64,000 nucleotides of DNA from Mycoemilia scoparia (lineage: Eukaryota; Kickxellomycota; Kickxellomycetes; Kickxellales; Kickxellaceae): contig JANBPU010000011.1 of assembly GCA_027575805.1 (NCBI GenBank), forward strand, positions 1 to 64,000. Reading direction: 5' to 3'. Made by a program: the position numbers and the translations under genes. A model generated the notes under the pieces. That model saw only the letters and a list, made by a program, of their open reading frames with translations. It was not told the DNA's origin and made no database searches. Positions 2,708 through 64,000 of this stretch are shown piece after piece. The stretch's first letter is position 1; every line of letters starts with the position of its first letter.

Positions 2708-2803
2708 CACGGGTAATAATTTTTGAAGAGTGAATATTTATAGGGGCAGCAATCACAGTCAAATGGATGACTATATAACCCTTCAAAAATTATTACCCAT
2801 ATG
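2708..2803 (+). mobile_element. MITE-like inverted-repeat element, subfamily A, copy 1
   Basis: About 95 bp. The left end GGGTAATAATTTTTGAAG (from 2711) is matched in inverted orientation by CTTCAAAAATTATTACCC (to 2798). The centre carries the subfamily A motif (TATAGGGGCAGCAATCACAG). This is a short version of the element, lying between secreted paralog B and the 3' end of the CLC gene. It has no coding capacity. Confidence 0.85.
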
Positions 2804-2980
2804 ATAACAGCACCAGATATCTGGGAGGATACAGGTATTTTGGGAAAACCTCGTTGGGATATAATTTTTATTGATGCAAGTATGTAAAGAGAGAGAGGGG
2901 TATTAATATGGATACATGATGATAGTGGAGTTAAAAGATAGGCTAATGTTTGTCAACTAAATCAAATCTCTATTCAAAAA

Positions 2981-5900
2981 TTAACTTTGCCTAAGCTCAA
3001 TGTATTCATCTTCAGACCGATTATTACTTGTTGATAATGACCAATTCCGAGAATAAAGGCCAGACCCGTCACCACTGCGTCTCACTCCCAAAAACATTTG
3101 GTTGCTGTCACTGGTTGAATGGATAATTGGCGAGTGTGATTTGGCATTGCAATGGAATATTGAACGCAAGATGTCTTTCCTGGTTATGAATCCAACCAAT
3201 ATGGAATCATCCTGCATAACATGAATAGCCCTTGGTCCCAGCTTCCTAAATATTTCCAGGACAGTTGCGGCTGGCATTCTCTGGTCGACACGCATAGGAT
3301 TGACATCTACCCACTGGCTGAGATCAATTACCATGTTGCCACTCGAGCTAGGTGCTACCACTTGGTCACTTATTGTTGGTGATGCATATGGCCCAGATGA
3401 TGGTACATTGGGTGCCGAGAGAGATGAGTTTATTTCTGGAATCCTGGGTTCAACATCACCACCACCACTGTTATTGCTGCTTTCCGTCCCAAAGCGACAC
3501 AGAACCTCTGCGGTTGGGGCACTCATGCTTCTGGCCTTTTCCAGGGCCTGTTCAAGCTCACGACGTGTGATATACCCTGATAAAACCATGTCATTTTTGG
3601 AAGAAACGATGGGGAATCCCTGGTATGCATTATCCTCAAGTATATTTTCAATATCCCGTATTTTTTGCAAGCCTGAAGTGATTACGACCAAATCCGTCTT
3701 CATTAGTGACTTTATTGGGATGTCAGGGAGGGTGGCTTCGTTGTCGAAAAATGGGATTCCATTGAGCAGTATCAGCTGCTCCGATATTCCACCATGTACA
3801 AAATAGTCGCCAACAACCTTTGCCACCATTACGACTATCATGGTCGGAACAATATAATTTAGAGCGCCAGTGAGCTCATACATAATAACTACTACAGCCA
3901 CGGTTACTTTTGTCACGCCGCAAAGTGCTGCTGATGCTCCAAGCAATGCATATGTTGCTGGCGTTATACATGGAGTATCAGGAGGACATTGCGAAAATAG
4001 CATAGACTTGGGATACGCGGTGTGGATCATTTGAACAATAATCCCAAGCATTCTCCCAAATGTTGCTCCAATGGCCATGCTGGGCACAAATATACCGCAA
4101 GGTATCTTGCATCCATATGCGACTATCGTCCCAATGGTCCGCAGCACAGTTGCAGCTGCAAGTAGCCATATCATTCTGCCGCTTAGATCGCGATCACATA
4201 TCTTTCCCCAGTTGCTCGATTTGCACTCTTGGAGCAGGATTGATAACAATTCACCCATATCTAGGCGAAGGAACATGTTTGTGAATGATATAAATGCTGT
4301 TCCTGTAGCTAGTAGGGTGACCTCCTTGACAGCATGGCTTTTGAGATAAAGTTTTCTAAACCTGGCCACCTTTACATTCAGGTGTGTCACCAGTGCACCA
4401 TACAAGCCACCAAATATTCCCAAGATCACAAAGAATATGATCTCGAAAAAGTGCCAGTCTTGGTCGTATTTTACTTGAAACATGACCAGCTTTCCTGTTC
4501 TGAAGGGGTTCATGGCCTACGTGGTTTGTTATAATTGGTTGATATTAGTTGCGAGATTCACAAGATATATCAGCAATCTCCTTATATAAGCACAGAAAGA
4601 AGCATGCGTGTACATATGTATTTATATTTGGTATATTTACCTGCAAACTAATCGTGGCGATAAGCGCACAGAAAAAGCTCCTCCACAGTGTTTTTAGCGG
4701 AAAGTATGAGCTAAGATCTTCAAGTGAAAACAGCACACCGCCTATTGGAGCGCCAAATGCCACTGCGATGCCAGCCGCCGATGAGGCTGAGAGGATTTCT
4801 CGCTGTTTTGCTGGAATTTACAATTGCAGACAGATAGATATCTTAGTTTCGAGGTGCATGGTTTGTAGACAATACTAGAGGATGAACATCAGTATCAATT
4901 TAGTGCCAACTTACAATGGCTATGCTTGAATTTGCTGAACCTTTTCGAGACGATGCTGCCAATACAGCAGCTCATATGTACTGCAGGACCTTCTTTTCCA
5001 ACACTTAAGCCAGAAGAAACTGACATTGCCTATACCAAGATTATAGCGCATTGTTGACATATTTAATATCCAAAACATGCAAATTGTGAACATATATAAA
5101 CACTTACCAAGCCAATGCTTTTTATCAGCAATGTCCATCCGCCCATAAACCCCTCAACAATAAATCCACAAAGTGTGGCCTTTATTTCAGGGAGACCTGA
5201 TCCCGCAGCATATGGCGAATACTCTCTTACAAGGTATGCGCACGACCATCCGATTGCCGTCTATAGCATGCAAAGTCATATGTCAGACAATCACCAACAT
5301 GCTGGTATGGCATGATTGTTAACATATAGATGATTATTTTTGAAGGGCGACTATTTGATAATCCACTGTGACTGTCCCTATAACCATTGGCCACAAAGGT
5401 ACCCTTCAAAACTTACAGCAAAGGTAATAAATAGTATCCAGTTGACTATATAAAAGTCCCTGCCGGTTAAAACATAGCTCCAGGAATGCCAATCGTCACA
5501 AGATCCGACTAATCACAACCATGTATAAATTAGTCAATATAGTAGTAGTAGTAGTAGGAATATTTACTTTGTAAGCAGAATATTCTTAATGCACCGCTTA
5601 CATTGGTCTTCGTTTTCCCAACAGCAAAACTTTTCGTTCAGCCACCAAGCTGTCGAGCAATAGCCAATTTTAAGATCACTGAGCCATTCTGTCACTACTG
5701 ATATCATTGCGGTGTCCAGACCGATGAAAGCGCCGGCCAAAAACGTGACAATCCATGCCTGTGCCGCTTCGTAAGCTAAGGTAAGCCAAGATAGCCAAGA
5801 CCCGGTAGCAAGTCGCCGCCTTATGGCAAGTGCTCGTGCCTTTTCGGTCATTGTGTCATATACCCAGTCTAACAAATAGCATAGATGATGTTATTCGAGG

Positions 5901-6124
5901 CCAGATCAAGAATCCAAGTGGTCGAGAATATGTGTGTAATCTATGGCTTTTATCTAAAAGCATGTGTTTCTCTGGTGGTTTATTCCAGCAGACCGCCTTT
6001 TGCACCTACCCACTGTGGTGAATTCGTCATAGCGTTCGGTTTGGGGCGAATCTTTCGTGGATTGAGGTCTGTGTTGCGTGAAGCTTCCACGAGACCCCCG
6101 CTGCCTCGGTTCAGCCGTGGTCAT
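2981..6124 (-). CDS. GEF1: CLC family chloride/proton exchanger with two CBS domains
   Basis: Predicted intracellular CLC transporter, about 815 residues, similar to fungal Gef1 and animal ClC-3/4/5, which exchange Cl- for H+ in Golgi and endosomal membranes. Exons (-): 6010-6124, 5602-5868, 5417-5508, 5108-5260, 4915-5029, 4641-4810, 2981-4516. Phases join cleanly. Family motifs: YDEFTTV-DWVYD at the N-terminus, [18 protein letters not shown], gating-glutamate motif [23 protein letters not shown] and [16 protein letters not shown]. Two C-terminal CBS domains follow at roughly residues 575-640 and 700-755, separated by a Ser/Gly-rich linker. The proton-glutamate position reads LED where ClC-3/5 have LEE. 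Intron 3 carries a MITE whose end supplies the splice donor. Transporter assignment is secure; organelle localisation is inferred. Confidence 0.95.
5324..5416 (-). mobile_element. MITE-like element, subfamily A, copy 2, inside CLC intron 3
   Basis: About 93 bp. The left end ATAGATGATTATTTTTGAAG and right end ACCCTTCAAAACTTAC form the inverted repeat. The centre has TGTCCCTATAACCATTGGCC, which is the reverse orientation of the subfamily A core. The element fills most of the 156-bp intron 5261-5416. Read on the minus strand, its right end starts GTAAGTTTTGAAGG, so the first six bases double as the intron's GTAAGT donor. Confidence 0.85.
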
Positions 6125-7562
6125 GATGTTCTAGCGTAATAAGTTGTGTCGGCAAGCAATACAGATTGGAGGCAGCGATTGTAATTTACAAAACTAAAGG
6201 AACCAGCATGAATAATAGCAAACATGGTAGCTCGTAAAGGCTCAAGAGCGGAGAACAGAAACAGCTAATGGGATATAGTTAATCTGCAAGCAACAGGCTG
6301 CGTGATCAACTTGAATCAAACATGCTGGTTCTGCTTTGCCATTGCATTGGTTGCAATAGAAGTGAGAGACCAGCTTCTGCTTTTGCTGGAAATAGGCAGA
6401 GGCAGAGGCAAAGTCTTGGCGCCAGCTTCCAGCTTTTAATAAGACTAGAGAGCAGCCCAAGTAAAATGATAGAATATTCCCTCTAATTTTGTGAGAAGGA
6501 TGCCTGGTGGAACATTCATTTCTCTGTAGGAAGATTGTAGTGGCTCGACTCTAGAAAAAAATGGCATTAAAAGTGATGCTGCCAATCTATGCAAGGGAGA
6601 CACACATTTAACCACATATTCTTCTCTAAAGGCACGAGCACCTTTTTGGATTCAGACATAAGCAAGTTTTAGCACATCACAAGTAACAGAAAAGGATTTT
6701 AGAGTGTTGTAGCACTGGAGCTTCAAATGCATCATCTTCTGACCAAGGATCCGCAGCCTTCTCACAAACGTGTGTATAGTTGATATAGTGTATGTATATA
6801 TGAATAAATGGGCACCAGATTTGTACTATTGCTGAGTGTAAGCAGGGGTGCGGACATCATGTACACAGAACAAATTATATCAAAGTGCAATTAGGTTTCT
6901 AATCATTCATAATCGAGCCATTTTGGCCTTGTTTTTAAAGTGGCGCCTGCTTGTCATGCTTGTCGAGGAACAAAGAAGGGATGGTGTATTGATTGCGGAA
7001 GCCAGCACAATTGTCATCCTCCGTGGTCCCTTGCTTTCCGAAAGTTCCGACGGGACCTGGCGGCACGATCTGGCATATCAAAGAAGGAGGACTGACGGTG
7101 TGTTTGTGTAAATGTGATGTATATGAATGGGGCAAGTGTTGGACGGCTAGCGGAATTTTCTTCTAGCGAAAGTTTGAGTTTTAGGTAATAAATCTGTATG
7201 GTTTCCGGCGCTACTACAAATTTCAAAGGAACCGCTTAGACAGTTCAGCTCTTTGGAAATGGGGCAGAGCACAAAGGCCAATGATTTTTAGGCATATCGA
7301 GATTTCAGCCAGAACTAAAGGCGCTGGAGAAAACGATCTCCCATCCTATGGTTCTGCTAAGAATGACCTTCTGCATTGGTCTTTAAGGCCCAGAATAAAT
7401 ATCCATGAGATCATGCTTGTGGGCCACACAATTTGGAAAAGGCATTTTTCTTGGCTAGTTATTTAAATGGACCCAAAGTGCCACCCACCTTTTGTCCACA
7501 ATCGCAGCTCCTAGATATTTAATTCCAGACCTTTACCTATTTATTATATTGATATAAACGAG
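6125..7562. other. Intergenic region between divergent CLC and DGK genes
   Basis: About 1.4 kb shared upstream region of two divergent genes. Open frames here (for example 6848-7111 +) are short, have no recognisable motifs and lack splice-supported extensions. I see no repeat or RNA gene. Confidence 0.5.
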
Positions 7563-10247: not shown

Positions 10248-10980
10248 TCTACACTTTCGAAATTAATATCACTGTTTGTCTCCAATACACACTATGTCGT
10301 TGTCATTCCTTTATTACATTTATTGTATTTTAGTTCCACTTGATTAGAATTATCACTTTTTAGTCTTTTCTTTGTTTATAATGTGAGTAAAAAGTCGCGT
10401 AATATTAAACAAAACTATTTTATTACAAATGAGCATAATAGTAGGATAATAAACTACACTGCTAGGCTTGTTCAATTGTAAATTTCCGTAAATTTTATTT
10501 TTTGCTTTATTACAAATAAACTTTTTCAATGAAAATATTGTGTATTCTTTGCTTCAGTAGAATTCATTGCCAAATGTGTAGTTATTTTTGAATGGTGGCC
10601 ATTTGCTAATAGGCTGTGATCACACGTTTGACTGGAACTGCCCCTATAATCACTAGCCGCCAAAAGGTACCCTATAAAAACCACCATCTGCATGTACAAT
10701 GTATTAATAATAGTAGGTTTAGACTCCTAAAATAGCCGCAATTATTATTTGCTAAGCAAAAGGATGGTAAATTTAACCCTTTCATGGTATGATGAACATC
10801 CACCTTCTATCAATTCTTGCTTAATTGTTTTCAAAATCAAACAAAAAATAGAAATCCCCATAATAAAATGTACCAAAACAATGATTTTCATTTAAAGCAA
10901 AAAAAACTTTCAAAAATATGGTCATACATTAAATTGGAGTAATAAATATAGATATTTCGAACAATAGTAGATAAAAACTA
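10248..10980. other. Intergenic region with a MITE
   Basis: AT-rich 3' and 5' flanks of the DGK and RRP17 genes. Apart from the MITE at about 10574-10695 I see no gene, RNA or other repeat. Confidence 0.5.
10574..10695 (-). mobile_element. MITE-like element, subfamily A, copy 3
   Basis: Degenerate copy. The left end is GTGTAGTTATTTTTGAATGG. The core CTGCCCCTATAATCACTAGC is the reverse orientation of the subfamily A motif. The right end GGTACCCTATAAAAACCACC has lost the CTTCAAAAA block. It lies in the intergenic space between the DGK and RRP17 genes. Confidence 0.75.
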
Positions 10981-11992: not shown

Positions 11993-12575
11993 ACCGCACA
12001 AAATCTCACATACACACCCTTTTTCTTTAAAAACATTATACAAAACACCAAATGAGCAAGTGTTTTTGATGGGTGGTTATTTACTAATAAATGTGATCAC
12101 TCATTTGGCTGTGATTGCCTCTATATAATCGTTGGCTACCAAAAGGCACCCTTCAAAAACTGTCACCCAAATAGCCATTTAATAATCTTGGTTTTTCTGC
12201 TTTTCTAATAAAAAATTCCATTAAACATTGTTGATCATCACTAACAGAAATATTTAACTCGTTGATTAGCTGGGAAAAATGACATTTGTTGATTGTAGAA
12301 TATCAAGGAAAGCTTTTCTTTTCGTGATAAAGTAGTACCTTAAAGTAATATCTGGATCGAGCATAAAAAGTAAAATTGGATTGAAAAAAGTTAAAGCAAA
12401 GGAGTTGAATAGTATGGGGTTATTAGCTAGGATGATAAGTGACCACCATTATAATAAAAGCATGTGTATAGTTTAAGTTGAATGTTGTTACGATGGTCAA
12501 TATAATAATTAATTCACACAGAGAATGGTATAATGGTAGGCGAGGGAGGAGATCTAAAATAGCGTATACGTAGTT
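11993..12575. other. Intergenic region between convergent RRP17 and EH genes
   Basis: AT-rich spacer between converging genes. It contains one MITE (about 12052-12172) and otherwise no feature I can support. Confidence 0.5.
12052..12172 (-). mobile_element. MITE-like element, subfamily A, copy 4
   Basis: Left end AGTGTTTTTGATGGGTGG, core GATTGCCTCTATATAATCG (reverse of the subfamily A core), right end CACCCTTCAAAAACTGTCAC. The left terminal repeat is partly eroded. Noncoding. Confidence 0.78.
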
Positions 12576-19493: not shown

Positions 19494-21150
19494 AGGAATG
19501 ACTTATCTCTTTAGTGTGAACGTTAATTTGTGTATGTGTGGGGCTGTCTATGTAAAGTAAGCAATATGCCCAGAAGATACTAAGGGGCCGCAATATTAAA
19601 AGGGCAAAGATGATAAAACAGCAGTCTATTGAGTAGGTGGGAGTGTGGGCGTTAGAACAAGACCAGAGAATAAGCACGGCAGCAAATTATGGAATAGGAT
19701 GAAATATAGGACAATTATTGCGGAGAGAGCCACTTGGCTTAACAATTAGAAAAAGGTCAATAATAGTAGGGAAATTTAGTGGGTGATGGGTTCTTGGAGC
19801 TAGGCACCCAAGATTATAAATCGATTTTTACCAATGCCAAGACCAGCCTTAACTTCAGACACAAAACCATATTTTGGCAGACTGATGGCGAATGACTTAC
19901 TCCAATCTCAGTCTAGCTTTTTCCGTGTTGGTCGAGCCACACACACACATCGGGTTTCTACTCGGCTCAAACCGTCACCTGTACACCCGATCTTATTGGC
20001 ATGCCTTGGGCTTCATTTGGCTTTGTTCTTGGTCTGATTACGACTATCAGATTTCCGCAAGGTATTTTTTTCCGCGTTATGCTTGGTCACTTGTTACTAT
20101 ATTCGAGACCAACATGCCTCATGCTCCTCTCAGAGCCATGAATTTATACTTATTTGTCGTGTCCATGAAAGAAAGCACAACATCTCTTGGTGTCAGCATT
20201 GGGGGACAATATTGCAGATCATATATGCAAACGTATTTTATCACTTTTTCTGGGGACACAGTTTCTAAAACAATACCCCCTCCACTACAGTTGCCACAGG
20301 ACTGAATAGTGACAGTTCTTCAAATGAGTGCCACTTAATTTGTCAACTGAAAGAAACTCCTAAAAGGATACTGGGATATTTCCTTTGATACCAGCCAATC
20401 ATCACTGATACTCCAGCTAAAACGTATGGGTTATGGACTGATTTGCAGGAAATGTGAGAGAGTATTTGTCTGTTCCCTTTTGGTGAAGAACTTGCCAATT
20501 GTTAGTATTAGTCTTTATTAATGCGTGGATTGCAGGCTTGTTTTTCAACGCTCTTCCTGTCACAAGCATCATTTTGCCCATGGCGACTGTTTAAATATAC
20601 TCGATATTCAAATACGCTTCCTTGGATTTGGATGGAATTAAATGTGGCGAATAATTTCACTGTAGATATTTCTGTACAAGCTGTTATCATTTCCATCATG
20701 ACAGTTAACTCCCGAACTTTTCTGGTAAATGTCCTTGAGCACAAAAATATGCCATGTGGCTCAGAGATTGTCCAAGAAAAAGCTTTGTGTAGTCCCCCAT
20801 CGCAGATTGTCACATTCCACAATGAGTTTACCAGTGATTAAATTTCTAGAAAAAACATGTGTATCAATTGAACAGATGAACAATTTGTTTTTGTAATAAG
20901 ACGAGATAGAAGATTTCATAAGCTTTGTCATAAGGTAGTGCTTTTTGATTAGTGGCATGCAAAACGGTAGGCTCATTTTGCAATGGGACTGCTAATGCCC
21001 AATAAAGCACGTGACTGAAATTGGTGCTGCCAGGTTTCCCATAATCGATACATAGTACCAAAACAATACCAAAATTTAGAAACGAGTGACGTTTGTATCA
21101 AAGCAAGTTGATGATAACTACCTTATATTGATTTTGGCTAGTATTAGAGG
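19494..21150. other. Intergenic region upstream of VPS16
   Basis: About 1.65 kb between the divergent Zn2Cys6 and VPS16 genes. Frames at 19892-20305 and 20521-20841 have ATGs but no recognisable motif and no splice-linked partner. I treat them as chance. A CA run (19939-19950) is the only simple repeat I note. Confidence 0.45.
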
Positions 21151-30660: not shown

Positions 30661-31819
30661 TTTCAGCCTCCAACAACCCTTACTGCTTCTATCCAGCCAT
30701 CATAAATAAAACCTTATACACACTGCTCACATCTGCCCTGCTGCTTGGACGGCGGCAACACATTGTAGATGCCCCAAACATTTCTTTGGTGCTTGCTTTC
30801 AAGATCTCGATCAATTGGTATAATAAATTCATTTTGAACCGAGTAGTAAACAAACATGATGCAATCTAATGGGATACAAGATCAATGTTGAAGAGAACAA
30901 GGGCTTTACACTACTTATACAAAGCATCGCCACATCGCTTGTACCACTCAGATCCAAAGACCATTTCAAAATAGCCAAAAATAAGCAGAAATAATGATAG
31001 ATTCAATTTAAAATAAAAGTTGCATATACACATATGGGAGGCTATTTTTGAAGGGCCAAATTAATATTATCAATGATATTATAGGCTGGCTAATATGCTA
31101 GTTGAAACTGGCCTACTGGTAAAAACTGTCCCTTTAAAATAACTACCCGTATGATGTAGTTTCTCAGTAGATTTCGACCCAACCCAACCGATAAATAAAG
31201 TAGGAAAGAGATTACAGAATTCATTTCTGTAATCTTGGATTGATGGATTTGTAAACAAAAGAAAGGACTACTTTGACGTAGACAGTGTTCAAAATGTGCA
31301 TGTGTGTGTGGTGCATGCTGAAGAGGACCGTAATATTCCAATGAAACAATGGTTCGAATGCAAGTAAAACAGTAGAAGAAATACGAGTAAAGATGTGTGG
31401 TGGTGGATGTCATAAAAGGCTATAAAAGCCAGTATAGTCTTTTCCACAACTGTTTATCCAATTGCTCTCAGCGGCAGGAAGAAACAAACAAAATCTTGAA
31501 AGTGTGGCAACCCTATGTCCTGCATATTTTATTCCACTTATTTCGGCTGGCTTATTTGGATTTGGGTTTGAGCCTATTTTTGGGCCAAACACAATACGCT
31601 TGTAAAGTGGACGCTGCAAGGTATATAAACAGTAGTAGCTCTCGTGCTTTGTAGGCTGAACTCATCTAGCGATATTTTATACCAACAACTTTTCTCTTGG
31701 CCGACCTTCCCGTCCTCTTCCTCTCCCTATTCATTTATTCTTTCATTTATTATTCCAGCCGTTCTTTTGGCTGCTATTTTCATTTTATCCATAGTACTTC
31801 ATTACGAGACATCATCATC
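30661..31819. other. Intergenic region with a subfamily B MITE
   Basis: About 1.15 kb. Apart from the MITE at 31031-31153 there is no recognisable gene. The frame that leads into the next gene is open from a TTG at 31697, but its first ATG is at 31820. Confidence 0.5.
31031..31153 (-). mobile_element. MITE-like element, subfamily B, copy 1
   Basis: Left end CATATGGGAGGCTATTTTTG, right end CCCTTTAAAATAACTACCCG then TATG. The centre, read on the minus strand, has CCAGTAGGCCAGTTTCAACT and TATAATATCATTGATAA, matching the copies at 50663 and 63871. It lies between striatin and the orphan gene. Noncoding. Confidence 0.82.
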
Positions 31820-34282: not shown

Positions 34283-34387
34283 CATATGGGTAGTTATTTT
34301 AAAGTGTTACCATGTTGCAACAAACTGTGATTGCCCCTATAATCTTTGGCCACCAAAAGTCACCCTTCAAAAGTTATTGCACATATG
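34283..34387 (-). mobile_element. MITE-like element, subfamily A, copy 5 (first of a triplet)
   Basis: Left end CATATGGGTAGTTATTTTAA, core GATTGCCCCTATAATCTTTG, right end ACCCTTCAAAAGTTATTGCA running into CATATG, which is also the start of the next copy. Confidence 0.82.
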
Positions 34388-34504
34388 GATCATAATTTTT
34401 GAAGGATGAATTTTGGTGACCACTGATTATAGGCGCAATGACAGCCAAATGAATGTCCAGTTTTACTAGTAAACTTTCACCCTTCAAAAATTATGATCCA
34501 TATG
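34382..34504 (+). mobile_element. MITE-like element, subfamily A, copy 6 (middle of a triplet)
   Basis: Terminal repeats look perfect over about 24 bp: CATATGGATCATAATTTTTG then AAGG at the left, and the exact inverse at the right. The core is TGATTATAGGCGCAATGACA. The inner end TTTTACTAGTAAACTTTCAC shares TTTTACTAGTA with subfamily B. It is very similar to copy 8 at 53635. Confidence 0.9.
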
Positions 34505-34620
34505 GATAGTTATTTTTGAATGGTGACTATTTCCTAACAAATGGCGATCACCCATTTGGCTGCGATTGCCTCTATAATCATTGACCACCGAAAGGTGTAC
34601 CTTTCAAAAATTGTTCATAA
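34498..34620 (-). mobile_element. MITE-like element, subfamily A, copy 7 (last of a triplet)
   Basis: The left end CCATATGGATAGTTATTTTT overlaps the last bases of copy 6. The core GATTGCCTCTATAATCATTG is inverted relative to copy 6. The right end CTTTCAAAAATTGTTCATAA is partly eroded. Confidence 0.82.
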
Positions 34621-36489: not shown

Positions 36490-38954
36490 TTTTCGGTTAG
36501 AAAAAGGATCTCGCAAAAGAAGAATGTGTAATTATAGTAGGCTGTGTAATAATAAAAGGGAGTCAAGAGGTGCAAGCCTATTACAACCACTGTCCAGTCA
36601 AAGCTAATTTCCTTTTATGGAAAAGAGGGACGGCTAGCGATCAGGCGGAAGAGAGGTAAGATAGAGGATCAACCCTTCGTTGACGAGATAGATAGGAGGT
36701 CCGGGCTACGTGGGCGAAGATGCCTTGGAAAACAGTGTGTGAAAAGAAAAAACGATCAAGACAAGAGTAGCTTGAGGGGGGCGAAATTTGGAGAAAACGT
36801 GGTCAGATTTAAAGGATTCTGGAGCCCACAGAATGTGGTAAAGAATGGGTGGTGGCATCTGCTCGTACGGACTACAGAAAAGAACGCGACTCTGGGACAC
36901 AAATCCAGAGGACTCACGTATAGGACAGAAATACAGCATATTTTTTGGCAAACAAAAGCAGCAAGCGATTTGCCTCACAATGGCCTTGCAACCACGGGTA
37001 CAAAGCAGAGGTCAGAATTGGCTGATGACGCTACGTCTATCCGACCAGGCATTGGCAGCAATACAAACGAGGTCCACTTGGCCACTCTTGATGCAATGCA
37101 AAGGCTAATCAGAGTCGCCTTTCACTCCTATTAAGTGCCCCACTTCTTGGCCTGGGATTATTCTTTAGCTGACAAAAAGTAGGGCCATTGTGTGATGCGA
37201 CCCTCCATAAAAAACGCCCGTTGATCAATCCCTCCAGCCATCAGAAGGCGTGTCTTCTGACGTTGAACAAACGCAACCATGGCCCCCGTTAATTTGCCTC
37301 CCGACCAGCTTTTTCCGGGAATGTCAATAGATCTTACCAAAGATTCTGCAATGCCTCATGACATGCACAGCCAGGCAATATCAAAAATCCTCTTTGCCAG
37401 CACATTTTTCTCTGGGCTATCAGTTGTTCTGGTCCGCGGTTTTCTTTTACCGCCCTGCCATGCGGGCGATGCTGTCCTCCAGTCTGTGCTGAGACAAACA
37501 ATTCACAAACATTGATCAAAAACCGAATCTTGAGATTACTAATATCAACCTCCAGCAGGAAATCCAGCTGACAAAACTGAGGACAAGAGATGGTCTTGTC
37601 ATATAGACTCAGCTATCATAAATCTGCACACCTGCAAAAAAGTGGTGACTATCTCCATCACAATGGCGACTAGCGTCTAAACAAGAATCAAAAGTGCTGC
37701 CAATTTCTACATTGTATCCTGGGTCAAATCGGGGGGCCATTGGCCAATAGTGCCCATCACATCCTTTGCCTGTCATTCCCAAAAGATGGAAAGGTTAACC
37801 TTTCTTGGGCTAACCTTTAACCACATCTTGAACACGGCTATTTTATACTACATATAACATATGGATTTTCTGGACAGATATTATTGTATCCAGAGACCAC
37901 TTCTGTATGCTAGATATAGTTGGGCACATATAACTTTCTCAAACAAAAAATCCTTTTATCACGAGTCTTCCCCACCTAAATGCCAACCATACATATTTGA
38001 GTGACAATGTTGTATGGCAAGGCCACGTTTTTGTTTAACCACAGGACCAAAGGCACTGGATGATAGACAGCGCCAACTCTATCGGCATTAGCCCTGTAGC
38101 TTTAACCATAGCTTATCAACTGTTGCTTTTAAAGCTAGCATTGGTAGTTCTTGGTATATAGCTCTCTAAAAGAATGCTGGGGCTCAAGACTCTTAATAGC
38201 TTTATGCTGTCTTGGATACCCGGTTCACCCAGCATAAGAATTGCCTATCAACCTGTGTGGCGACTAGCAGCCAACCAGTGGAGGCTCATATGGCTATTGT
38301 GCTTGTGAACAACAATGCTGATATTATATCGATGACCTTTATTTTACAGCGCATAAACAAAAATCACTCTGTGGGGCTGCGATCAGACTTGGGCTTGTGA
38401 ATCCATTTGTCTGAGCTGCCTCTTACTTTCCTCCAACCGATAAAAGGGATTCGCTTGAATAAAATTGGCAAGCTCTCCACCAAAAAGGTACAGACAGATA
38501 CGCTCGTACATTCCCTGAAAATTGGCCTATAAGCTATACATTTTAGCTGGAGTCTCAGTGATGATTGGCTAGTATCCAAGGAGATATCCCAGCACCCTCT
38601 TAGAGTAGACTGCTCTGCCAATTTATAGACCTCCCGCACTCACATCCCAGAAAACCTTTTAGAAGCCGTATTCAATGCCACGGGGGTCTACTGTCTAAAC
38701 GAGAATGTGTGATGATTAATTTTATGATGGATTAAGGAGAGACACCGTCCAGCATACCACACATGACAGTTTAATATGCGATACTGAGTGGATTATGCTC
38801 GATAAAGTTTGAATAACAGGGCATGGCCAACGTAATAATAACCAGCCAATACGTTGATGACACCAGGATGACTTGCCTTTCCTTTCTCTTGTCTTCTTAT
38901 TATTTCTATTGCCCTTCTAGGCCTTGACGATTGACTTATTTCATCCGATTCAAA
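36490..38954. other. 2.5-kb region without a firmly supported gene
   Basis: Lies between the ATP-grasp-like gene and PHO88. A 131-codon frame (36739-37134 +) and a 78-codon frame (37279-37515 +, reading MAPVNLPPDQLFPGMSIDLT) have ATGs. The second has a good ATG context (CAACCATGG) and could be a small or broken gene, but neither matches anything I know. The rest is of mixed composition with no clear repeat. Confidence 0.4.
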
Positions 38955-47138: not shown

Positions 47139-49305
47139 TATTTATCGCGGTCTTGTCTAGAAATACACATACACAGTCCTACCAGATCCGAACCCCCCTT
47201 TTGTTTTGGCAAATGAGCATTTGCATTGATCTGGGTAGGGCCGATCGATAACGATCAAGTTTTACAAGAATATTTTCACAATCTCGGAGCGGTTATGGGT
47301 GAGCATTGATGTGATAATACATGTGCGTCAACCTTTTTTATTATATATGCTACTAGTATATAGGTCTAAACATGCTCCTTAGAAGAATAAACACTATATA
47401 ATTATCGCCCATCTTTTTATTGTAACAAATAGCAACAAAGGCTTGTAGTGTATTTAAATAAATAGGCTGTGAAGTGCCAGGAGTGCTGGACCAAATAGCA
47501 AGATTGAGATGGTAGGGTTGGTCTGGTTGAAAGGAAAATATGGGGAAAAATCAGTAGAAAAACACTATGACTACATGACGGACAAAGAAACAGGTTTTTG
47601 CCAACAAAGAGTAGCATAAAACGATCAGTTTTATGCGAAATACATAGGCAAGCAGCATTCACTCGTTGCTGAATGACGACATATATGCAAGATACCTGAC
47701 CTAACGGGCATGGTTGATGGCAACAAAGATGATGATTTCTAATAGGAGTTATTCACTAGGCAACTCTGCTATCCTTTCCTGCGGAAGTAGCCAAAAGATA
47801 CATTTTCCCCACACTAAGTAAGCAATTAGACAAACAAATGGCGGCTGGTCTTAGTGCTATAGCAACATGATTAGAGACCTAGATTGTGACCAAATGTTGC
47901 AAGCACAATTGGAAGAGTCTCCTCCAAAAGTGTACCAGAATAATCACTCCAACGCCAGCCTAAAATGTTTGGCTTGTGGGCCAAATCTGCTGGAGAGGCA
48001 GAACAGTGCAATTAGGCTCACTTTTGATAAAGAGCCCGCCAATTGGTGCAGAAAAAATCGACTGCCATCTTGCTATGTTCCCATTAGCTTACAGGGATGG
48101 ACGCAGATTTCTAGATAAGGGCACCCGGTTCGGCTAGGCAACTGGAAAATAAGGACAACCACGATGGTGCTGTAAGGGGCTCTAGCTCAAAAGTCCAAGA
48201 CACCAGTCTCGACTCTTAAGGTAGGCTGATGCCCAAACACGTGCAGGTCGTGACACATGGCGGCTTCAAGATATAGAATGGCAGATGTGTATCAAACTAA
48301 GATGTGGAGGGATACATCCAATTACCTCCAAGCCCATCCCTTTGTAACGACTGTGGCAAACATGCATGTGTGTTTGGAGATGCCTTCAGCTAATACTGAA
48401 ATATCTTGGCACTGCAAGTCCATAAGCCAACAACGAACCGGAAAGAATGCCACAAGGGCTGAGATCAGATATTTTGGGGTAGTTGGAACTTCATTGGTCT
48501 GCTCACAGACAAAGGCTGAGACTTGGCTAGCCTTCATCCACAGCCTTGACTGGGCTTTCCGATTATTACAACGGCCTTTTCTCGCCCTGGGGTCTACACA
48601 ACAATCTCCTTGATAGTATTAACTGCTGGCTTATATTTGTGGCATTCTGCACGACTCAACGTAATAAATGTCAGCTAGAGGCCGCCCCCTCCTGTTAAAA
48701 GACACACGAAGTTTTAAAAATTCCTAACTCCTATCCTTCTCCCTCTCTCTTTTTCTCTCTTTGAATTCCTTCAACTTGCATTATATATTTACAACTTTTT
48801 ATACATTGTAGCAACCAATCCCCTGCTTGGCCAAAGGAACCATATATCCGCCACAATATACTATCATACCCATACAGCGAAGCTTCTTCCAGCTCGGATT
48901 GGACAAAATACGGGGTGATCTCAAGACAGCCGAACTCTCTCTCTCTCTCTGCCACTTGTGTCCAGAACTACCCCGACAGCCCGCCTAATCTCCTTATTTT
49001 ATTTGTCTAGAACATTGGCAGTACCTTTCCGTCTTTTCCCTTCTTCTTTCTGGCTACGGTTAAAAGTTGTGCTACACCCTCATATTTGCTACGACTCTGC
49101 CACAATCATCTTCTCCACCTCTCTCTCTCCCCTCTTTCTGCATAAGGTTTTATTTTAAAAAGCCATTTTACTTTTTTTGTTACTACCAAAAACCTAATCA
49201 CACCACTTCACGGCACAGCAACATCATAGCATTGCCGCTGATATTACTGTTTCGTGATACACTCCAACATAGCATACCACACCACCAACCCCGCCATCCA
49301 ACAAA
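47139..49305. other. 2.2-kb intergenic region upstream of the mannosyltransferase
   Basis: Divergent space between MFAP1 and the GT15 gene. Frames at 47867-48118 and 48257-48613 have ATGs but no recognisable domain. From 48720 to 49140 the sequence is rich in CT tracts (CTCTCTCTCTCT at 48937-48950, CTCTCTCTCTCCCC near 49120), typical of a pyrimidine-rich fungal promoter or 5' leader. Confidence 0.45.
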
Positions 49306-51219
49306 ATGATAAACAGGGTTAAGCTATTCATTCTCCTGGCGGTTTGCTCTTTGCTTTTAATATCAACCAAGCTTTTCTATTCGGCGGACCATATTCCCAT
49401 TGACGCCGATACGATCAACCGCTATATACCTCTGAAAAAGGCTGCTGTTCTTGGTGATTACCACCAAAAGCCCGAAGCCAATGAAAAAGAAACCACAGCC
49501 TACGAAAGCGAGTCGCCTTCTACACGGGTAAATGCTGCCTTTGTGGCCCTTGTCCGCAACTCGGAGCTCGCTGGCCTTCGCAGCACTGTGCGCCAGATTG
49601 AGGACCGTTTCAATCGCAAGTACAAGTATCCCTACATATTCCTTAACGATGTGCCCTTTACCGAAGAGTTTAAGCGGGGCATGAGTTTTGTTACCGACAA
49701 TGAAATTCGCTACGGAATGTTGAATGCCTCGGACTGGAGTATCCCAAAACACCTCGATCCCGCCAAGGTCTTTGCTGCCCTGGAAAAGAACAAGAGTCGC
49801 TATATCTATGGCGGCAGTCTTAGCTATCGCTACATGTGCAGGTAAGCATTATCATTTTTCTGGACAATATATGATTGACTGTTGGTTGTGTGTTTGTGTG
49901 TGTGTATGCGAAGCTTTTGTGTTGGGTCTTTTCCCCAAGACTTTTAAAAGCGCCACAGTTTTTAAATCCTTAAATTCTCTCATGCATACGCATGCACAAA
50001 GACAAGTGAATGGCAAGATAAACTTTCCTTGCTTTTTCTTCTTTGTTACTGCAGTGTCCTCTAAAATGTTTTTGTTGACACTGCGCCTTCTTCGCCCTCC
50101 CCTCAAAAAAAGCCGATGTTATTGATAATAGATAAAATATTTTTGGGCTCTATCTTGATCAAGTCCACACAATGACTTTCCCTGTGTGCACTCCCCACTA
50201 TCATCAATGCAAAGTAGAGGCATATGTGTGAGCCCATTACACAGCGATGGGGATCTAATAATAGGAGACACTAAATTTATTTGTATATAAAATATGATAG
50301 GTTCCAGTCTGGGCTGTTTTATGATCACCCACTGCTCAAGGATCTCGAGTATTATTGGCGAATTGAGCCTGATGTAAATTACTACTGCGACCTGGACTAC
50401 GACCCCTTCGTATTTATGAAAGAAAATGGAAAGCGCTATAGTTTCACAATTGCCCCGCTTGAATGGGAAAAGACCGTTGAGACTTTGTGGCCAACCACGC
50501 TTACTTGGATCAAGGAAAACCCCCACCATCTGCCTGAAGAGTCCATGATCAACTGGGTAATGGGGAACAACGGCGACTACAATATGTGCCACTTTTGGTC
50601 CAACTTTGAAATAGTCGACCTATCTCTATACAGGTATGTGAAAGCACTTTGTTTGGTCTATCTATATGGGTGATTATTTTTGAAGGGCCAAGTTTTACTA
50701 GTAGGCCAGTTTCATCTCGCATACCGGTTAAGCCTATATTATCATTGATAAATGTAGTCTGTTTTTAGCCCTTCAAAAATAACTACCTATATGAGTAACA
50801 GTGGGGCGGGGCTCTCTCCACTTATTAATATCAAATTCACTAACAAACACATAACTACTTACCTGTGCCATAGATCCGAGGCATATCGGTCGTATTTTGA
50901 CCACCTTGACAAATCTGGCGGTTTCTTCTATGAAAGATGGGGTGATGCGCCCATTCACTCCATCGCCGCCAGCATGTTCTTGAAGAAGTCCGAGATTCAC
51001 TGGTTTGAAGACATTGGCTACAAGCATCCCGGCAACGAGCACTGCCCACGCCCCGAAGAAATGGCCCTCAAGTGTGTATGTGATAGCAGCCGCTCATACA
51101 CCTACAGGTCACGCTGCCAGAGACGCTTCTCGCTAGTGCAAGATGTCAAGAAGGAAGAGCTCCTACAAAAGGTTGCGCAACGACTAATCGATGTCCCTCC
51201 TGCCAGCCCACAACCATGA
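49306..51219 (+). CDS. GT15 alpha-1,2-mannosyltransferase (KRE2/KTR family)
   Basis: Golgi type II membrane glycosyltransferase using GDP-mannose to extend O- and N-linked mannans; 404 residues. Exons: 49306-49841, 50301-50633, 50874-51219. A short cytosolic tail (MINRVK) precedes one membrane anchor (LFILLAVCSLLLISTKLFY). Catalytic-domain blocks: VNAAFVALVRNSELAGL, YPYIFLNDVPFTEEFK, YWRIEPDVNYYCDLDYDPF (conserved EPDV motif), KENPHHLPEESMINWVMG, YNMCHFWSNFEIVDLSLYRS, GGFFYERWGDAPIHSIAASM and GYKHPGNEHCPRP. Intron 1 is 459 bp, long for this window. Intron 2 (240 bp) contains a subfamily B MITE. The paralog within the KRE2/KTR/MNT group cannot be decided from sequence alone. Confidence 0.94.
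50663..50794 (+). mobile_element. MITE-like element, subfamily B, copy 2, inside GT15 intron 2
   Basis: About 130 bp. The left end TATATGGGTGATTATTTTTG plus AAGGG is matched inverted by CCCTTCAAAAATAACTACCT then ATATG. The interior has TTTTACTAGTAGGCCAGTTT and TATTATCATTGATAAATG. It makes up over half of the 240-bp intron; the intron's own splice sites lie outside it. Confidence 0.9.
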
Positions 51220-53176: not shown

Positions 53177-53906
53177 CTTGGACAGATGGTCGCTCTGAAA
53201 ATAGATTCAGAGAAAGAGGTGAATATTATGCGTATATGAATGGAAAAGTGGGATGTGGAAGCTTCCTGTATGGGCAGCAAACACACAAATAGCCGAAATT
53301 GAGGATTTAAAGGGAGAAGGATGATAAAGAGTCGTAAGGACTCAATGGATGGTTTTTGGTAATTACCTTTGGATACGGATGCGAGGCTTGTAGAGAAAAC
53401 ACAGCTGCATTTCTGTTGTTGATACGGATGCGCTAACAACTGCGTGATGCAGACGTTGACGTAAGCACCTGAAATATCTGATTTGATCTTTGATCATCCA
53501 AGTGTGAAAGTGATGTATGGGAATCAAAAGAAACTCTAAAATGGGGTTATTTATGATTAAACAAGAAAAGCATGTTTTTTGGAAACTTGGAGTACTATGT
53601 ACTTGGTGACTTATTAACTCTATGTTATCAGGAATATATGGATCATAATTTTTGAAGGATGAATTTTGGTGACCGGTGATTATAGGGGCAATCCCAGACT
53701 AATGGATGTCCAGTTTTACTAGTAAACTTTCACCCTTCAAAAATCATGATCCATATGTGTAGGCAATTAAAGGCCACTTTTCAAACAATTTCATTTTATT
53801 TAATAGGTCGACGTTGTTGAAGGATAAAGTGTATTTTAGGAAATAGTATATTGAAAAAAGATAGCCTTGAGTCTAGCCTTGGTTAAAATGCATGTTGTTC
53901 ATCATA
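53177..53906. other. Spacer between SCD6 and PRE6 with a MITE
   Basis: About 730 bp. Apart from the MITE at 53635-53758, no gene or RNA is apparent. The part next to 53177 is the SCD6 promoter/leader. Confidence 0.5.
53635..53758 (+). mobile_element. MITE-like element, subfamily A, copy 8
   Basis: Ends TATATGGATCATAATTTTTG and CAAAAATCATGATCCATATG. The interior GATTATAGGGGCAATCCCAG and CCAGTTTTACTAGTAAACTT match copy 6 (34382-34504) nearly base for base; I count roughly ten differences over about 120 bp. Confidence 0.9.
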
Positions 53907-55166: not shown

Positions 55167-56158
<992 letters not shown>

Positions 56159-56721
56159 TTTGCTTTTAATCAGCAAATATTTTTTATTCATCCATTAAAT
56201 GGAACATTAACTTCAAAAACAATTTATTATCACTGCTGTTGTACATTTATTATAAAGTATTCAAATATCCTTTTCCATCGCATTTGTCCCAAACGTTGAA
56301 AATTCTATATTAATGTAATGTGGGGATTTTGTAACCTAATTTCCCCGAATATCATTTACACTAATTCGCTTTTCATTGGGATATATTTGGCATTGGCATA
56401 CAGGTAATTTTCATTTTAATGGATTTTCCCTCAAGCCATTCTAAGTATTAAAAAGTCTTAACTTTATGCATTTACTTGAGACACGTTTATCCACTTCAGA
56501 GCTGCTCCTTGCACCTAAAATCCAAAGCCCTTATACCACTAAAGGATAAAGATACTGCTTTTTAGTTCATGTATAGAAATTGCTGATCAAGAAAAAATAT
56601 CACTGATTTGATTATAATTTTTTATTGCTTGTTGAAAAAGAACCAAAAGAGCTACAGAACACTATTTTTTCTACGTTTTTGTTTTTTTTTCTTTTATAGC
56701 TACATATATAAAACACACGCC
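56159..56721. other. Spacer upstream of ERB1
   Basis: About 560 bp, AT-rich, no gene. The ERB1 frame is open upstream to 56608 without a suitable ATG. Confidence 0.45.
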
Positions 56722-59034: not shown

Positions 59035-59804
59035 TCGCAATATTTTCCACCAGAGATCTATATATAGAACTATAAAGCATCAAGCCAAGCATATCTTTTT
59101 AAGAGTAATAGATCGCTGAGAGATTTCCAATTATAGTTACAAAAAGGCTTTATTTGTTTTGGTTTCACAAAACAAGACCATACTTATAATTAGCCAGAAT
59201 CACCATTATACTAATAAATAGTCTATAATAACAAGTGTAACATAGTGCACGCACAATTACAAATGATCCATCTCCATCAATCAATGGCCCAAATGGGCAA
59301 TGCTATAGTCTTTAATAGCACATGTCTATTTTCTTTCCCAAAAAGCATCAATTAAAGAGAATCAACAAGAAGGGATCGAGGCACAAGAATTGGTGATAGA
59401 TAATCTGTGTCAAGGCTTGAATAAACAAGTACAATATGATACATTAAAATCAAATAAAACAAAGGGTTGCTGCTAGCTGGATGATAAAATGAATGAGTAG
59501 TGAATGGTGTGGTATATACTAAGGGACGGGTTACGGTGTGTGAGTGTGCGTACAGAGACAACAAATGTAGCAGTAGAAAAGCTGAGAGATCCTATCTACG
59601 GCCAGAACCACTCGTAGAGGTAAAAAAGGTGCATGCAATAAAGACGTTTCATCAGACACAAGCGCATACTCATAGCAAACCACACTCGAGAGCGCCCTCG
59701 TACATTGATAGATAGGAATAAAGACAAGGGAGAAGGATAGTCGGAGCGAGAGAATGAGTAGTGAGAGCTCCAAAGAAGAAAATAAAATGATGAATCGGCG
59801 CATT
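59035..59804. other. Convergent spacer, ERB1 to C2H2 gene
   Basis: 770 bp between converging genes; AT- and GA-rich. Short frames only. No repeat recognised. Confidence 0.45.
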
Positions 59805-61060
59805 TTAGCGAGATACTTTTACGGCCATCATGTTGATCAAAACTTGGGCAGCCTAGTAGTAATAAATCACAACAGCAGCAAGCACCACAAAAACAATAAT
59901 TTGTTAGTTACATGCGGTGGCACTGTGGGCACAAATGCGTATAATAAATGTTTCCAGTGATGGATGGGCACAAAGAAAGCAAAATGTTGTGACTGGAGAT
60001 AATCAAGGGGCTGTAGAGAAAATATATCATTAGTATCTGCTATACTAATAGCAAGAGACCATTGATACGAGACAAAGGGGGGAGGGAAGAGGATATAAGG
60101 TCTGAGAAGGAATGAAAGTAAGAGATGGTGGCGTAATAGAGAAGATAGTTTCCAGCATATTATTTGTAAATCAGCACACACACACACAACAATATAGAGA
60201 GTAGAAAACGGAGATCTGAATAGTAGTTAAAATAAAAACTATATAGTAGTAGTATGCATACCTCCATCATTTGAACTTGCTGGTGTTTCGTGAGATTATA
60301 CTTGAGACAGGCATCCCAGGCTTCGTGGTGCTCCCACATATGCTACATCAACAGCAAACATACAAGAGGAGGGCCAGAAAAAGAGCCGAAATGAGCTCAG
60401 GTTAGAATCAAGTGTAACACAGAGACAGATAAAACTCATGTGCATATATAAAAGATAAACGTTTTGAAACAAAACATCGCAGCAACATTTAGCAATGTTT
60501 TGGATATGCCTCAACAGCATATCTGGGTTTAACTATATGCTATCATGTTCTCTGAAACGTTTAGAGGAGCCAGTATCGTTGGGAGCGCCCTGAACTCACC
60601 TTTTGCAAACAGCTGTGATGCTTGTATTTTTTGCCGCACACGCTGCAGACAGCTGTGCTGCGTCCAGAGAATTTCCGGTCGCTGCCATAGCTTCCCAGCT
60701 CAAGTGGGCTGTACTCTGGGGAGCTGCTGCTGCTACAGGCTCTGTTGTATTTGTAGTCATCGATGCGGCGACGAAGAGGGTCTTGGTTGTAGTCTATTAT
60801 TGGGGATAGAGGGATGGCCACATTAAATATGTATCGATATATGCATTAAATATATGCGGATACTATCGTGCCCATAGGCGGTGGCCTGACACACAAAGCA
60901 AAGCAGACTATATGCAAACCAGCAGGCCCAGGAACAGAGTTCCCCTCCAGCCAATGAGTCCATTGCTGGACCGGCGATTGGCAGGAACAGAGATGGGCAA
61001 AGCCGGAGAAAGTAAGCACCACTTACACTTTGGCTTTTCAGAGGACTTTGTGTTATACAT
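59805..61060 (-). CDS. Small single-C2H2 zinc finger protein with HQQVQ motif
   Basis: Predicted 118-residue protein. Exons (-): 61027-61060, 60600-60793, 60262-60342, 59805-59852. It begins MYNTKSSEKPK, continues with Arg/Tyr and Ser-rich sequence, then a classical finger CX2CX12HX3H (VCSVCGKKYKHHSC then LQKHMWEHH) whose last half is on the next exon, and ends LTKHQQVQMMEAAQVLINMM followed by AVKVSR. The KYKHxxCLxKHxWEH...SKHQQVQxxEAAxxL arrangement occurs in fungal C2H2 proteins of unknown function, in which the HQQVQ helix follows the finger. Three exons are well supported by this match. The last exon, after a 409-bp intron, is short but continues the EAAQ helix, so I accept it with caution. 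Nucleic-acid binding is inferred. Confidence 0.68.
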
Positions 61061-63870
61061 GGTACTGACAGAAGAAATAAAAAGATGGTTGAGGTAGTGG
61101 TGTAGTAAGTAATAGTAAATAAATCGGAGCAAGAAATAAAATAGAAACAAGATAAAGGACCCCACTTAATAGATGAACGGGGACGCAGTCTTAAATATTC
61201 ACAAAAATGGATATCACATAAATTTGAAATATCAGCTGCCAGATGTGCTAATATTATTAGTAGTAGAACACAGAGCGGCTCGTCTATTCTCTTTCTAACA
61301 AAGCCAAGGAAACTTATTTTCCACAGGCTGTGCGCCGATGAAACGAGGCACAGTGTGAGCCAGGAATTTCGACAATGGCCACAGTGCTCTTTGCAGAATT
61401 TAAATGGAGAGCTGTGTGGGCCGACAGTCAGAGTGAAAAGTCACGTTTTCTTAAACCTGGTAATCATCAGCTCTCCCTCTTTTAGCCTTGGCCTATCCAA
61501 TCTCGTTCTTAACCTTCCTTCTACTGTAGGTAACACACGGCTACCATGACTTTCAACCAATTCATACTCCTCTATCCAACCCCGCCTCTTCTTTAAACAG
61601 AGGCAGCTCATGGACACACTCCCATGACAGCTCGACATTACTACCATGGCCGCTGCAGTGGTCCTACTACTCCCACCATCATCTCGCTATCTACAAAACA
61701 TCTGGAAGCTATGTACAAATTACTAGTTGCCTCACAAGAAAATATAAATATACAAAATATAGGCCAATCCTTCTTTTCTGATAAGCACACATACTCAGAT
61801 CTCACCCTAAAATGCTGAAGTGGCCAAGAACAGCAGCAGCAGCAGCCAGCTGTATGCCGGCCAGTGTGTTTGCATTTTCAGCAATCAATGACAAAAAGAA
61901 TTCTATATGAGAACGCCTTTACACTCTTTGTTTTTCCACTTTGATCTCTTGTATAAAAAACAGGGCGCATCCTTTATGCGGAAAGATAGGTGGGAATATA
62001 GTAGTATACTGGCTGGTAGCTGGGACAATCAGCGCAGCTGTACGAATAACTGAACTTGTATATCTAGTATACTGGAAAAATCGTTCAATATTCTTTATTT
62101 AGATTCTCTGTGTGTCTATGTTTCAGATATTTTTAAAGTAGTAATGACAAGCCATCTGGTTTTTATGTGACCTTTGCATTCCCTAATGCCTTTAATGTTT
62201 TTGGCTACTACCCAGTAATCGCTTTGAACCCAGGGCAAATGAAACACGGCCTGGCCCATCAGACAGTAGCACCAGCAAATCAGCCGGTCCAGCTACCGCC
62301 GGCTGTTTACTCAGCATTATGATAAACATTACTCTGTCCCTTTAAATATGACGTGAGAGCACCACTCTCTAAAGCCAAATAGTATTATTTGATTTCACAC
62401 CCATGGCCTGTTTATTCTAATTACGCCCATTTGATGGTTTAGCACAGCACTATTTGTCGATGGTGACTCCTGATATTCCGAACGACCCTCGTTGTTGGCC
62501 TTATTGCTATTGCTGCTGCTAATATCACCACTATTTGGAGACTAGGTTATGGCTACTTGGCAGCCATTGTAGCAGCTGCAACAATAGCTACAGCAGCGTT
62601 GACTGTAGATATCAGGGCAGTAGTTCAGCCTATTCTGATTCACCACATCTTACCCTTATTATACTGCTTTTTCCTTGTCCTTATCACCAATATTTTCGTA
62701 AAGCAGCGCGGGCTTGTCCACCATAGAAAGTGGGGCGGTGTGCTTTCAGAGTATAAAAATATATCCAGATGCTGCTGTTGAACTGAACCGCTCCACGCAT
62801 AACTGAACATCTTTAATTAAGGGGCCAAAATGTACCAATGCATGCAAATTCACCACAACCACAATCCGACAATGCACTATTCTACGCTTAGCGGTATTGT
62901 CTATGTGTATTGGTTTGGAACAAAGCTGCCTTCAGTTGGCAGCACAACTCTTGACCTTGTTCTTGGTCACAAATGCACCTTTCTCGGCTGTTTCGACAGC
63001 AGGCCCATTATTCAGACATCCAAAAGGCCTTTGGACTGGATGGCTATACTATACATTCCCAGAGAATATTCCCAACATAAAGCGATCTGGATAACAGTAT
63101 ACCTTTTTGTTCATATGATACTCCGGACCATCCAGGTCGTCGTCGTCGTCGTCATCGTCATCAAATCAGCTATTTGGCGGTCAGACTTCCTTATGGCAGT
63201 TCTCAGTATTTGTTTTCTTGGAAAATGAGTAGAATCGTAGTTGGTTTGTATAGTCTATTTGTGATTGCTGTTGCTGCTATAATGTCTTGCGTGGATGTGT
63301 ATGCTGCCCTCAACTAATGGCCATTTATTTACATGGGCACAATGCATTGGGATCATATCTCGTGATGCTACAGACCCAGCACAAATAGCTGCCTTAATTC
63401 GGTCACTTGAATCGTATAGATAGCCAAATGGGCCTGATGACCCTCTCGTTTTTACTATTACTAAATGGGATGGTTTCCCTAGTGACCGAATCTATGGTAG
63501 GCAGAAGTGGCCCACAGATTTTAGTTCATGATTGAGCTGATCCATATGCGGCTCCTGGGGACCGATTTTGCCCAAGGCCTTGTGAACTTTGACCAGATAA
63601 TAAAACACTTGTCAAACCCAGTCTTCCCCTTATCCAGATACTTTTTGACTATTTTATTTTTGACTACCATCCATTTAAGATGCTTTGATCAAAAGTAACA
63701 GCCACCATCTAATTCTGGATAAGCAGTAATAATGAAATCCACCCATCGTTCCATCCCTGTCATATTACCATAGACGCTTTTAACCATTGGGGGGCAATCG
63801 AGGACTGGATCTACCTCCGGAGCTTCCTGTCGCTGCCGGAGGTTATTGCGTGCTTTATCCTTTGAGTCGC
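61061..63870. other. Right-edge region without a supported gene
   Basis: About 2.8 kb. The longest frame (62830-63228 +, 132 codons) is Ile/Val/Tyr-rich at its end because of GTC repeats (63135-63160) and has no recognisable domain. Other frames (62535-62781) are Ala/Leu-rich and overlapping. The stretch holds one copy of a dispersed repeat near 63508-63602. I see no RNA gene. Confidence 0.45.
63508..63602. repeat. Dispersed repeat, copy 2
   Basis: Contains GTGGCCCACAGATTTTAG, then CCATATGCGGCTCCTGGGGA and TTTTGCCCAAGGCCTTGTGA, matching the last VPS16 intron (about 25062-25145) with spaced substitutions. The best match is the 60 bp from about 63548. Confidence 0.6.
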
Positions 63871-64000
63871 TTTATGGGTGATTGTTTTTGAAGGGCTAAT
63901 TTTTACTAGTAGGCCAGTTTCATCATGCACGTTTGTCAGCCTGTATTATCATTGATAATATGCATTGGCATGTATAGTCTGCTTTTAGCCCTTCAAAAAT
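63871..64000 (+). mobile_element. MITE-like element, subfamily B, copy 3, cut by the window edge
   Basis: Starts TTTATGGGTGATTGTTTTTG then AAGGGC. The interior TTTTACTAGTAGGCCAGTTT and TATTATCATTGATAATATG match the copy at 50663. The right end is reached at CCCTTCAAAAAT and stops at the last base of the window. Confidence 0.88.

Follow-up and report, generated by a model that had tools for sequence, protein, structure and literature searches.

Short inverted-repeat elements of Mycoemilia scoparia form an abundant MITE family with a probable 4-bp ATAT target duplication

In this study, we report the analysis of a repeat family first noticed in a 64,000 bp stretch of the Mycoemilia scoparia genome (contig JANBPU010000011.1, positions 1 to 64,000; hereafter the window). 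The repeats, named F1, are miniature inverted-repeat transposable elements (MITEs) of one family, as the original prediction from the window had proposed: its copies are short, have inverted ends, are numerous and dispersed, are flanked by target duplications and have precise empty sites. A second MITE family of the same genome is named F2. The explanation that best accounts for the data, and in which we have high confidence, is that F1 consists of MITEs mobilised in trans with a 4-bp target duplication. The elements would have been moved by a cut-and-paste transposase recognising the GGRTNATNATTTTTGAAGG ends, and it is well supported that such an enzyme would cut with a 4-bp stagger, so that the whole 4-mer is duplicated.

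The assembly scanned comprised 21,160,063 bases in 466 contigs. A position-wise scan for TATGGRTNATNATTTTTGAAGG at up to 3 mismatches found 14 ends in the window and 37 in a second stretch, C1:1-200000, and none with the reversed control in either. Across the whole assembly, the terminal pattern at up to 2 mismatches gave 2219 + 2260 = 4,479 ends against 0 + 0 for the control. F1 is therefore not restricted to the window, its inverted ends are present elsewhere, and the large genome-wide population expected from the window was recovered. A profile was made from 59 paired copies (pairs with at most 6 mismatches over both ends summed; degraded copies, such as those at 31036 and 34288 of the window, lie outside this set) and used to scan the window and C1:1-200000. 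It detected 11 merged elements in the window, exactly where the original prediction had listed them, and 26 elements in C1:1-200000 (27 merged intervals, two of which are the halves of one copy split by F2). The 264 kb read thus holds 37 F1 elements, and profile matches span 3,972 of 264,000 bases (1.5%). Scaling by density gave about 2,750 (C1) to 3,640 (window) copies, and scaling by ends, in which 41 ends at up to 2 mismatches correspond to 37 elements, gave about 4,000. The genome is accordingly estimated to carry 3,000-4,000 F1 copies, or about 1.5-2% of its 21.16 Mb.

The 59 paired copies measure 83-133 bp from the outer GG to the outer CC. Both ends read GGRTNATNATTTTTGAAGG in inverted orientation, often followed by GTGAA. 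Positions 10-18 were the most constant among 146 ends, partly through selection, as a match to that core, at up to 3 mismatches, was what qualified an end for the set. The view that one terminal repeat bounds two subfamilies was upheld, with an A interior in 41 of the 59 copies, a B interior in 15 and neither in 3. A GATCAT variant was found at the left end of 29 of the 41 A copies and at the right end of 8, of which 3 had it at both ends, these counts being biased by copies that were fetched by similarity. Across the 59 copies, outer variants and interiors thus occur in mixed combinations, as if the interior had flipped or ends had been swapped between copies. F1 copies are too short for a transposase gene, in line with the predicted lack of coding capacity; in the window, the copy at 31036 is overlapped by one short reading frame (31090-31413) and the copy at 50668 overlaps the end of one reading frame by a few bases. 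Folding of three F1 copies as hairpins gave -26.7 to -39.5 kcal/mol (no shuffle control). The median pairwise identity was 81% among nine A copies from the window and C1 (110-118 bp, well-kept ends). None of the 59 copies formed an identical pair; the closest two, L046 and L051, have different flanks and differ solely by a 3-bp insertion. The family thus appears mostly old, with some younger copies. Solo F1 ends were also present (18 listed in the sample), and no longer F1 relative was identified, gene-bracketing pairs of ends more than 300 bp apart having been sought by eye.

Insertion of F1 was precise and strongly directed to ATAT. The flanking 4-mers were the same on both sides in 48 of the 59 copies, being ATAT in 46 and ATCT in 2, and flank identity ended after 4 bp. 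When the frame was shifted by 3 or more, at most 3 of the 59 copies had matching flanks; shifts of 1 or 2 gave 9 to 25 matches, because ATAT overlaps itself. The remaining 11 copies were mismatched (three GTAT/ATAT, two ATAT/ATAC and six others, including the last copy of the window with TTAT/TTGT). Immediately outside the 4-mer, pooled over both sides of 41 non-tandem copies, the base was C in 35 cases, T in 29, A in 16 and G in 2, while the background before ATAT was T 768, A 666, C 468 and G 430. The preferred context is thus the palindromic Y-ATAT-R, in which C or T is favoured outside the 4-mer and G is rare. Three pre-insertion sites were identified. The F1 copy in L038 sits in a Tc1-type transposon whose relatives in L034, L035 and L037 are uninterrupted, and two further copies, one at C1:11840 and one in L053, sit in F2 elements, other members of which are uninterrupted. 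The comparison of empty sites suggested by the original prediction therefore confirmed precise insertion. The duplicated unit is most likely 4 bp and not TA.

Since ATAT flanks fit both a TA duplication inside A..T and an ATAT duplication, rare targets were examined. The first target base was not A at 14 exact-core ends and the fourth was not T at 12, so the two outer bases of the target are constrained to a similar degree. Of the 14 rare-first-base ends, 8 had their far end retrieved (for C130 and C138, only its outer part was covered). In three of these eight, the same rare 4-mer was present at the far end (C130, GTAT; C198, CTAT; C212, CTAT), where a TA duplication predicts A. Two copies had ATCT on both sides, their middle two bases being duplicated. 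Under a TA-duplication model, three matching far bases in nine have a probability of about 0.002 at 3% deviation per end, the 3% being an estimate made with the total of exact-core ends uncounted. We consider it highly probable that the target duplication of F1 is 4 bp, usually ATAT and rarely GTAT, CTAT or ATCT.

F2 provided a second set of flanks. Its copies lie at 20322-20527, 38432-38625 and 47898-48065 of the window, and further copies, roughly 20, in C1:1-200000 (L009-L028; 30 profile matches at E up to 0.1, several being fragments of one copy). The inverted ends are TGGCARRGTCTCC...AAAAGGG, with the layout GGCA...TGCC. Both ends could be placed in 18 copies, of which 17 measured 127-154 bp between them and one 99 bp. 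Automatic comparison found identical flanking 4-mers in 6 of the 18 (ATTT three times, AAAT, AATT and ATGT, the last in a copy whose left end matches poorly), against 3 of 18 at one base off and none at shifts of 4 or more. The automatic left border was 3 bp off in four copies; after a shift by eye, two of these matched (AATT, AAAT) and two did not. F2 shares the GG...CC layout of F1, and its varied, A/T-rich 4-mers speak for a stagger of 4 bp; F2 may have been mobilised by the same enzyme as F1 or by a sister enzyme. One F2 copy is nested in an F1 copy at C1:121131-121374 (L021) with ATTT on both sides, indicating that F2 moved after that F1 copy had arrived. A third dispersed repeat, ATGGCTTTATTTCA...AGGCATAAAAGC, was seen beside or around an F1 copy at about 1450-1700 of L007 and at C1:63673, 127050 and 134754 (L009-L028).

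F1 copies were also found abutting one another or F2. Clustering was assessed in 20 A-type copies taken from the best matches of a similarity search, passing over C191 and C427 (both with neighbouring F1 matches) and the window copies. Abutment at the target was flagged in 10 of the 20, five with F1 and five with F2; by eye, eight were clear (L048, L051, L055 and L061 with F1; L054, L056, L057 and L059 with F2). In the complete set of 59, and with copies inserted inside F2 counted, 23 copies had an abutting F1 or F2 neighbour and 36 had none. Ten abutments in 20 have a probability of about 1e-8 if such ends account for about 5% of ATAT sites, a share estimated from 2,331 ATAT sites, and of 4e-4 at 16%, with only Y-ATAT-R sites eligible. 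The unselected 264 kb contained 4 F1-F1 junctions, one of them not clean, against 0.6 expected when all ATAT sites are counted (p 0.003) and 2.0 expected with the Y-ATAT-R preference (p 0.14); the excess is thus weaker there and rests more on the fetched copies. The frequent abutment of F1 on F1 and F2 ends probably arises from the borders that an insertion creates: these read CATAT or ATATG and so supply half of the favoured Y-ATAT-R context. Existing copies would in this way be good targets, yielding tandem arrays whose units share one ATAT, and such self-targeting borders would offer a simple sequence-level account of tandem MITE arrays.

The genome was searched for transposases of the DDE_3, DDE_Tnp_4, DDE_Tnp_1_7 (PF13843, piggyBac), DDE_1 and MULE families. 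DDE_3 transposases were present at 15 places, and all 15 loci were fetched. They include at least four Tc1-type families with ends of about 210-250 bp starting with TACAGT or TACACT. The original prediction had proposed looking for a transposase gene with matching ends; no transposon with F1 ends was found in the 15 DDE_3 loci, inverted repeats having been read in 13 of them (not in L042 and L043) and ends not being visible in all. The F1-like ends in several of these loci belong to neighbouring MITE copies. Those in L041 are complete F1 copies on either side of the transposon, outside its own ends. The transposon of L040 is bracketed, again outside its own ends, by one F1-like end and by a match that, with 5 mismatches, is at chance level. 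A Tc1/mariner partner was not supported, as the DDE_3 transposon ends that could be seen (TACAGT, TACACT and TATCGTGATG) differ from those of F1, and a PIF/Harbinger partner was rejected because DDE_Tnp_4 was not detected in the genome (0 matches; the control was positive in 1 of 14 genomes). DDE_Tnp_1_7 likewise had 0 matches in the genome, with an equally silent control. DDE_1 (pogo-type) was found at one place, C287:64-339, and MULE at four, C134:24142-24441, C219:6667-6966, C422:67292-67582 and C85:6917-7090; these are candidates for a partner with F1 or F2 ends. Two observations concern the DDE_3 loci themselves. In L041 (C313:1500-6400), a transposon-like unit of 1.3 kb occupies 2034-3356; it has a stop-free 402-aa DDE_3 frame and perfect 29-bp ends TATCGTGATG. 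The Tc1-type families at L030-L040, with terminal repeats of 210-250 bp and DDE_3 matches, have copies up to 98% alike and were perhaps recently active.

Several observations weigh against a 4-bp duplication by a transposase acting in trans. The far end differed in five of the eight rare-first-base copies (C331 and C445, GTAT/ATAT; C452, GTAT/ATAA; C138 and C46, TTAT/ATAT), and L049 (C95), also one of the 14, is GTAT/ATAT. Among the 59 copies, the three GTAT/ATAT copies (L049 and two more) and the two ATAT/ATAC copies are unmatched. Such copies fit mutation, to which the mismatches can putatively be attributed, or duplication of TA alone within a favoured A-TA-T. Taken alone, the ATCT copies are compatible with duplications of either 2 or 4 bp, 10 of the 18 F2 copies are without an exact flanking 4-mer even after the shift by eye, and an autonomous element with F1 ends was not found in the 15 DDE_3 loci. 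An alternative is a Tc1/mariner (Stowaway-like) origin, with the TA target sites that the original prediction had suggested; a 2-bp TA would then be duplicated in an unusually strict A-TA-T context, and the terminal T and A would be part of the element. Such an origin agrees with the presence of DDE_3 transposases, with the resemblance of Tc1 targets to the palindromic Y-ATAT-R context and with the ATAT-like A or T kept at the far end by six of the nine rare-first-base exact-core copies (five of the eight and L049). It would nevertheless require a matching mutation in the element's end each time for the GTAT/GTAT copy and the two CTAT/CTAT copies, two copies lie at ATCT and not at TA, and the Tc1-type ends of the fetched loci start with TACAGT or TACACT, or are TATCGTGATG in L041. 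Rare 4-mers that are whole at both ends, together with the varied 4-mers of F2, argue against Tc1/mariner; the evidence is strong, though not unanimous, and we regard a TA duplication as improbable. A bolder reading of the 4-bp duplication, that F1 and F2 were left behind by a eukaryotic cut-and-paste transposase superfamily with 4-bp A/T duplications and GG...CC ends that is undescribed or has yet to be matched, is speculative and of low probability. If it were true, F1 would be specialised for ATAT in the way that piggyBac is for TTAA, with its own borders serving as targets for tandem and mixed arrays.

Two further explanations were also considered. F1 copies might give rise to introns, as introner-like elements do, or might be regulatory hairpins retained because they serve the host, given that one copy lies inside an apparent intron and that the three folded copies form hairpins through their ends. 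The apparent intron, 50634-50873, however, exceeds the copy, and its splice sites, placed by eye, lie outside it. Copies also occur inside other repeats, a transposon among them, and are decayed, as their median identity indicates, and the window is without an Rfam match at gathering score, all of which makes this explanation very unlikely. Dispersal by recombination or segmental duplication could be invoked for the tandem arrays, but the sharp ends, the flanks that differ between copies and the three precise pre-insertion sites leave it hardly any probability.

Trans-mobilised MITEs with a 4-bp duplication can be set beside several known systems. Tourist-like (PIF/Harbinger) MITEs are, like F1, short and abundant, and their ends often start with GG; the symmetric ends of F1, with ATAT directly before GG and directly after CC, are incompatible with the 3-bp direct repeat of PIF/Harbinger. 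The piggyBac and Kolobok elements fully duplicate TTAA, a palindromic all-A/T 4-bp target, whereas F1 has ATAT on both sides (46 of 59). MULE duplications are 8-11 bp long, a length rejected for F1, in which flank identity stops after 4 bp. With Stowaway-like (Tc1/mariner) MITEs, F1 shares short length, absence of coding sequence, inverted ends, high copy number and a T/A-rich palindromic target, but its duplication is best read as ATAT and not TA, its ends start with GG and no transposon of the DDE_3 loci shares them. In Table 1 of PMC4405373, the duplication is given as TA for Stowaway-like MITEs, 3 bp for Tourist-like MITEs and 10 bp for MULE. Chapaev (CMC) elements, described in the relevant part of PMC4079192 as having 3-4 bp duplications and CAC...GTG ends, are alike in duplication length and differ from the GG...CC ends of F1.

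Unclassified MITE families with 4-7 bp duplications are mentioned for Nosema in PMC4405373, so the kind is known; as far as literature searches show, the F1 family, its host lineage and its choice of ATAT are new. The searches found no literature on MITEs in Kickxellomycotina, none about MITEs in Zoopagomycota as judged by title and start of abstract, and nothing on point about 4-bp or ATAT duplications as judged by the listing. In Mycosphaerella graminicola, the duplications given for 12 of 13 MITE families in the relevant part of PMC4522978 are 2-bp, 5-6-bp or 8-9-bp, none being 4 bp. The estimated 3,000-4,000 copies of F1 compare with 122 for the most abundant MITE family of Nosema bombycis in the portion of PMC4405373 concerned; one MITE family of this size in 21 Mb is dense for a fungus, judged against what these parts of PMC4405373 and PMC4522978 report. 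The MITEs of Epichloe are placed mainly in the gene-rich part of the genome in the corresponding section of PMC6218096. A 4-bp ATAT duplication is at odds with the MITE groups usual in fungi and suggests that the transposase concerned has yet to be found.

Within the window, the inverted ends ascribed to every listed element hold family-wide, although some of its copies are decayed. The first copy (2711-2798, A-type interior, short form, given without strand) has a decayed left end, with ACAC as its left flank and ATAT as its right; the right end of the degraded copy at 5328-5415, also without strand, is decayed and its end approximate. The copies at 10577-10688 (minus strand, A-type) and 12055-12168 (minus strand) are both degraded, and their ends are approximate. 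A B-type copy occupies 31036-31148 on the minus strand. A three-unit tandem array follows, formed by unit 1 at 34288-34382 (minus strand), the middle unit with an A-type interior at 34387-34499 (plus strand) and unit 3 at 34504-34613 (minus strand), the far end of which is decayed and approximate. A lone ATAT is common to units 1 and 2 (34383-34386) and another to units 2 and 3 (34500-34503). The A-type copy at 53640-53752 (plus strand), in which both terminal repeats equal the pattern with 0 mismatches, lies between ATAT duplications at 53636-53639 and 53753-53756. The last copy, B-type, at 63876-64000 (plus strand), is a real F1 element as had been listed, but is truncated by the window edge and runs to about C13:64008 (L006).

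The B-type copy at 50668-50788 (plus strand), flanked by ATAT duplications at 50664-50667 and 50789-50792, is the one within the apparent intron, which by eye belongs to the plus-strand gene 49306-51219, presumably encoding a KTR/MNT1-type mannosyltransferase. By the ERB1/BOP1 protein of the window, the genome falls in or near Kickxellomycotina: the closest named match of this protein was that of Spiromyces aspiralis (68% identity), followed, among named matches, by Coemansia species.

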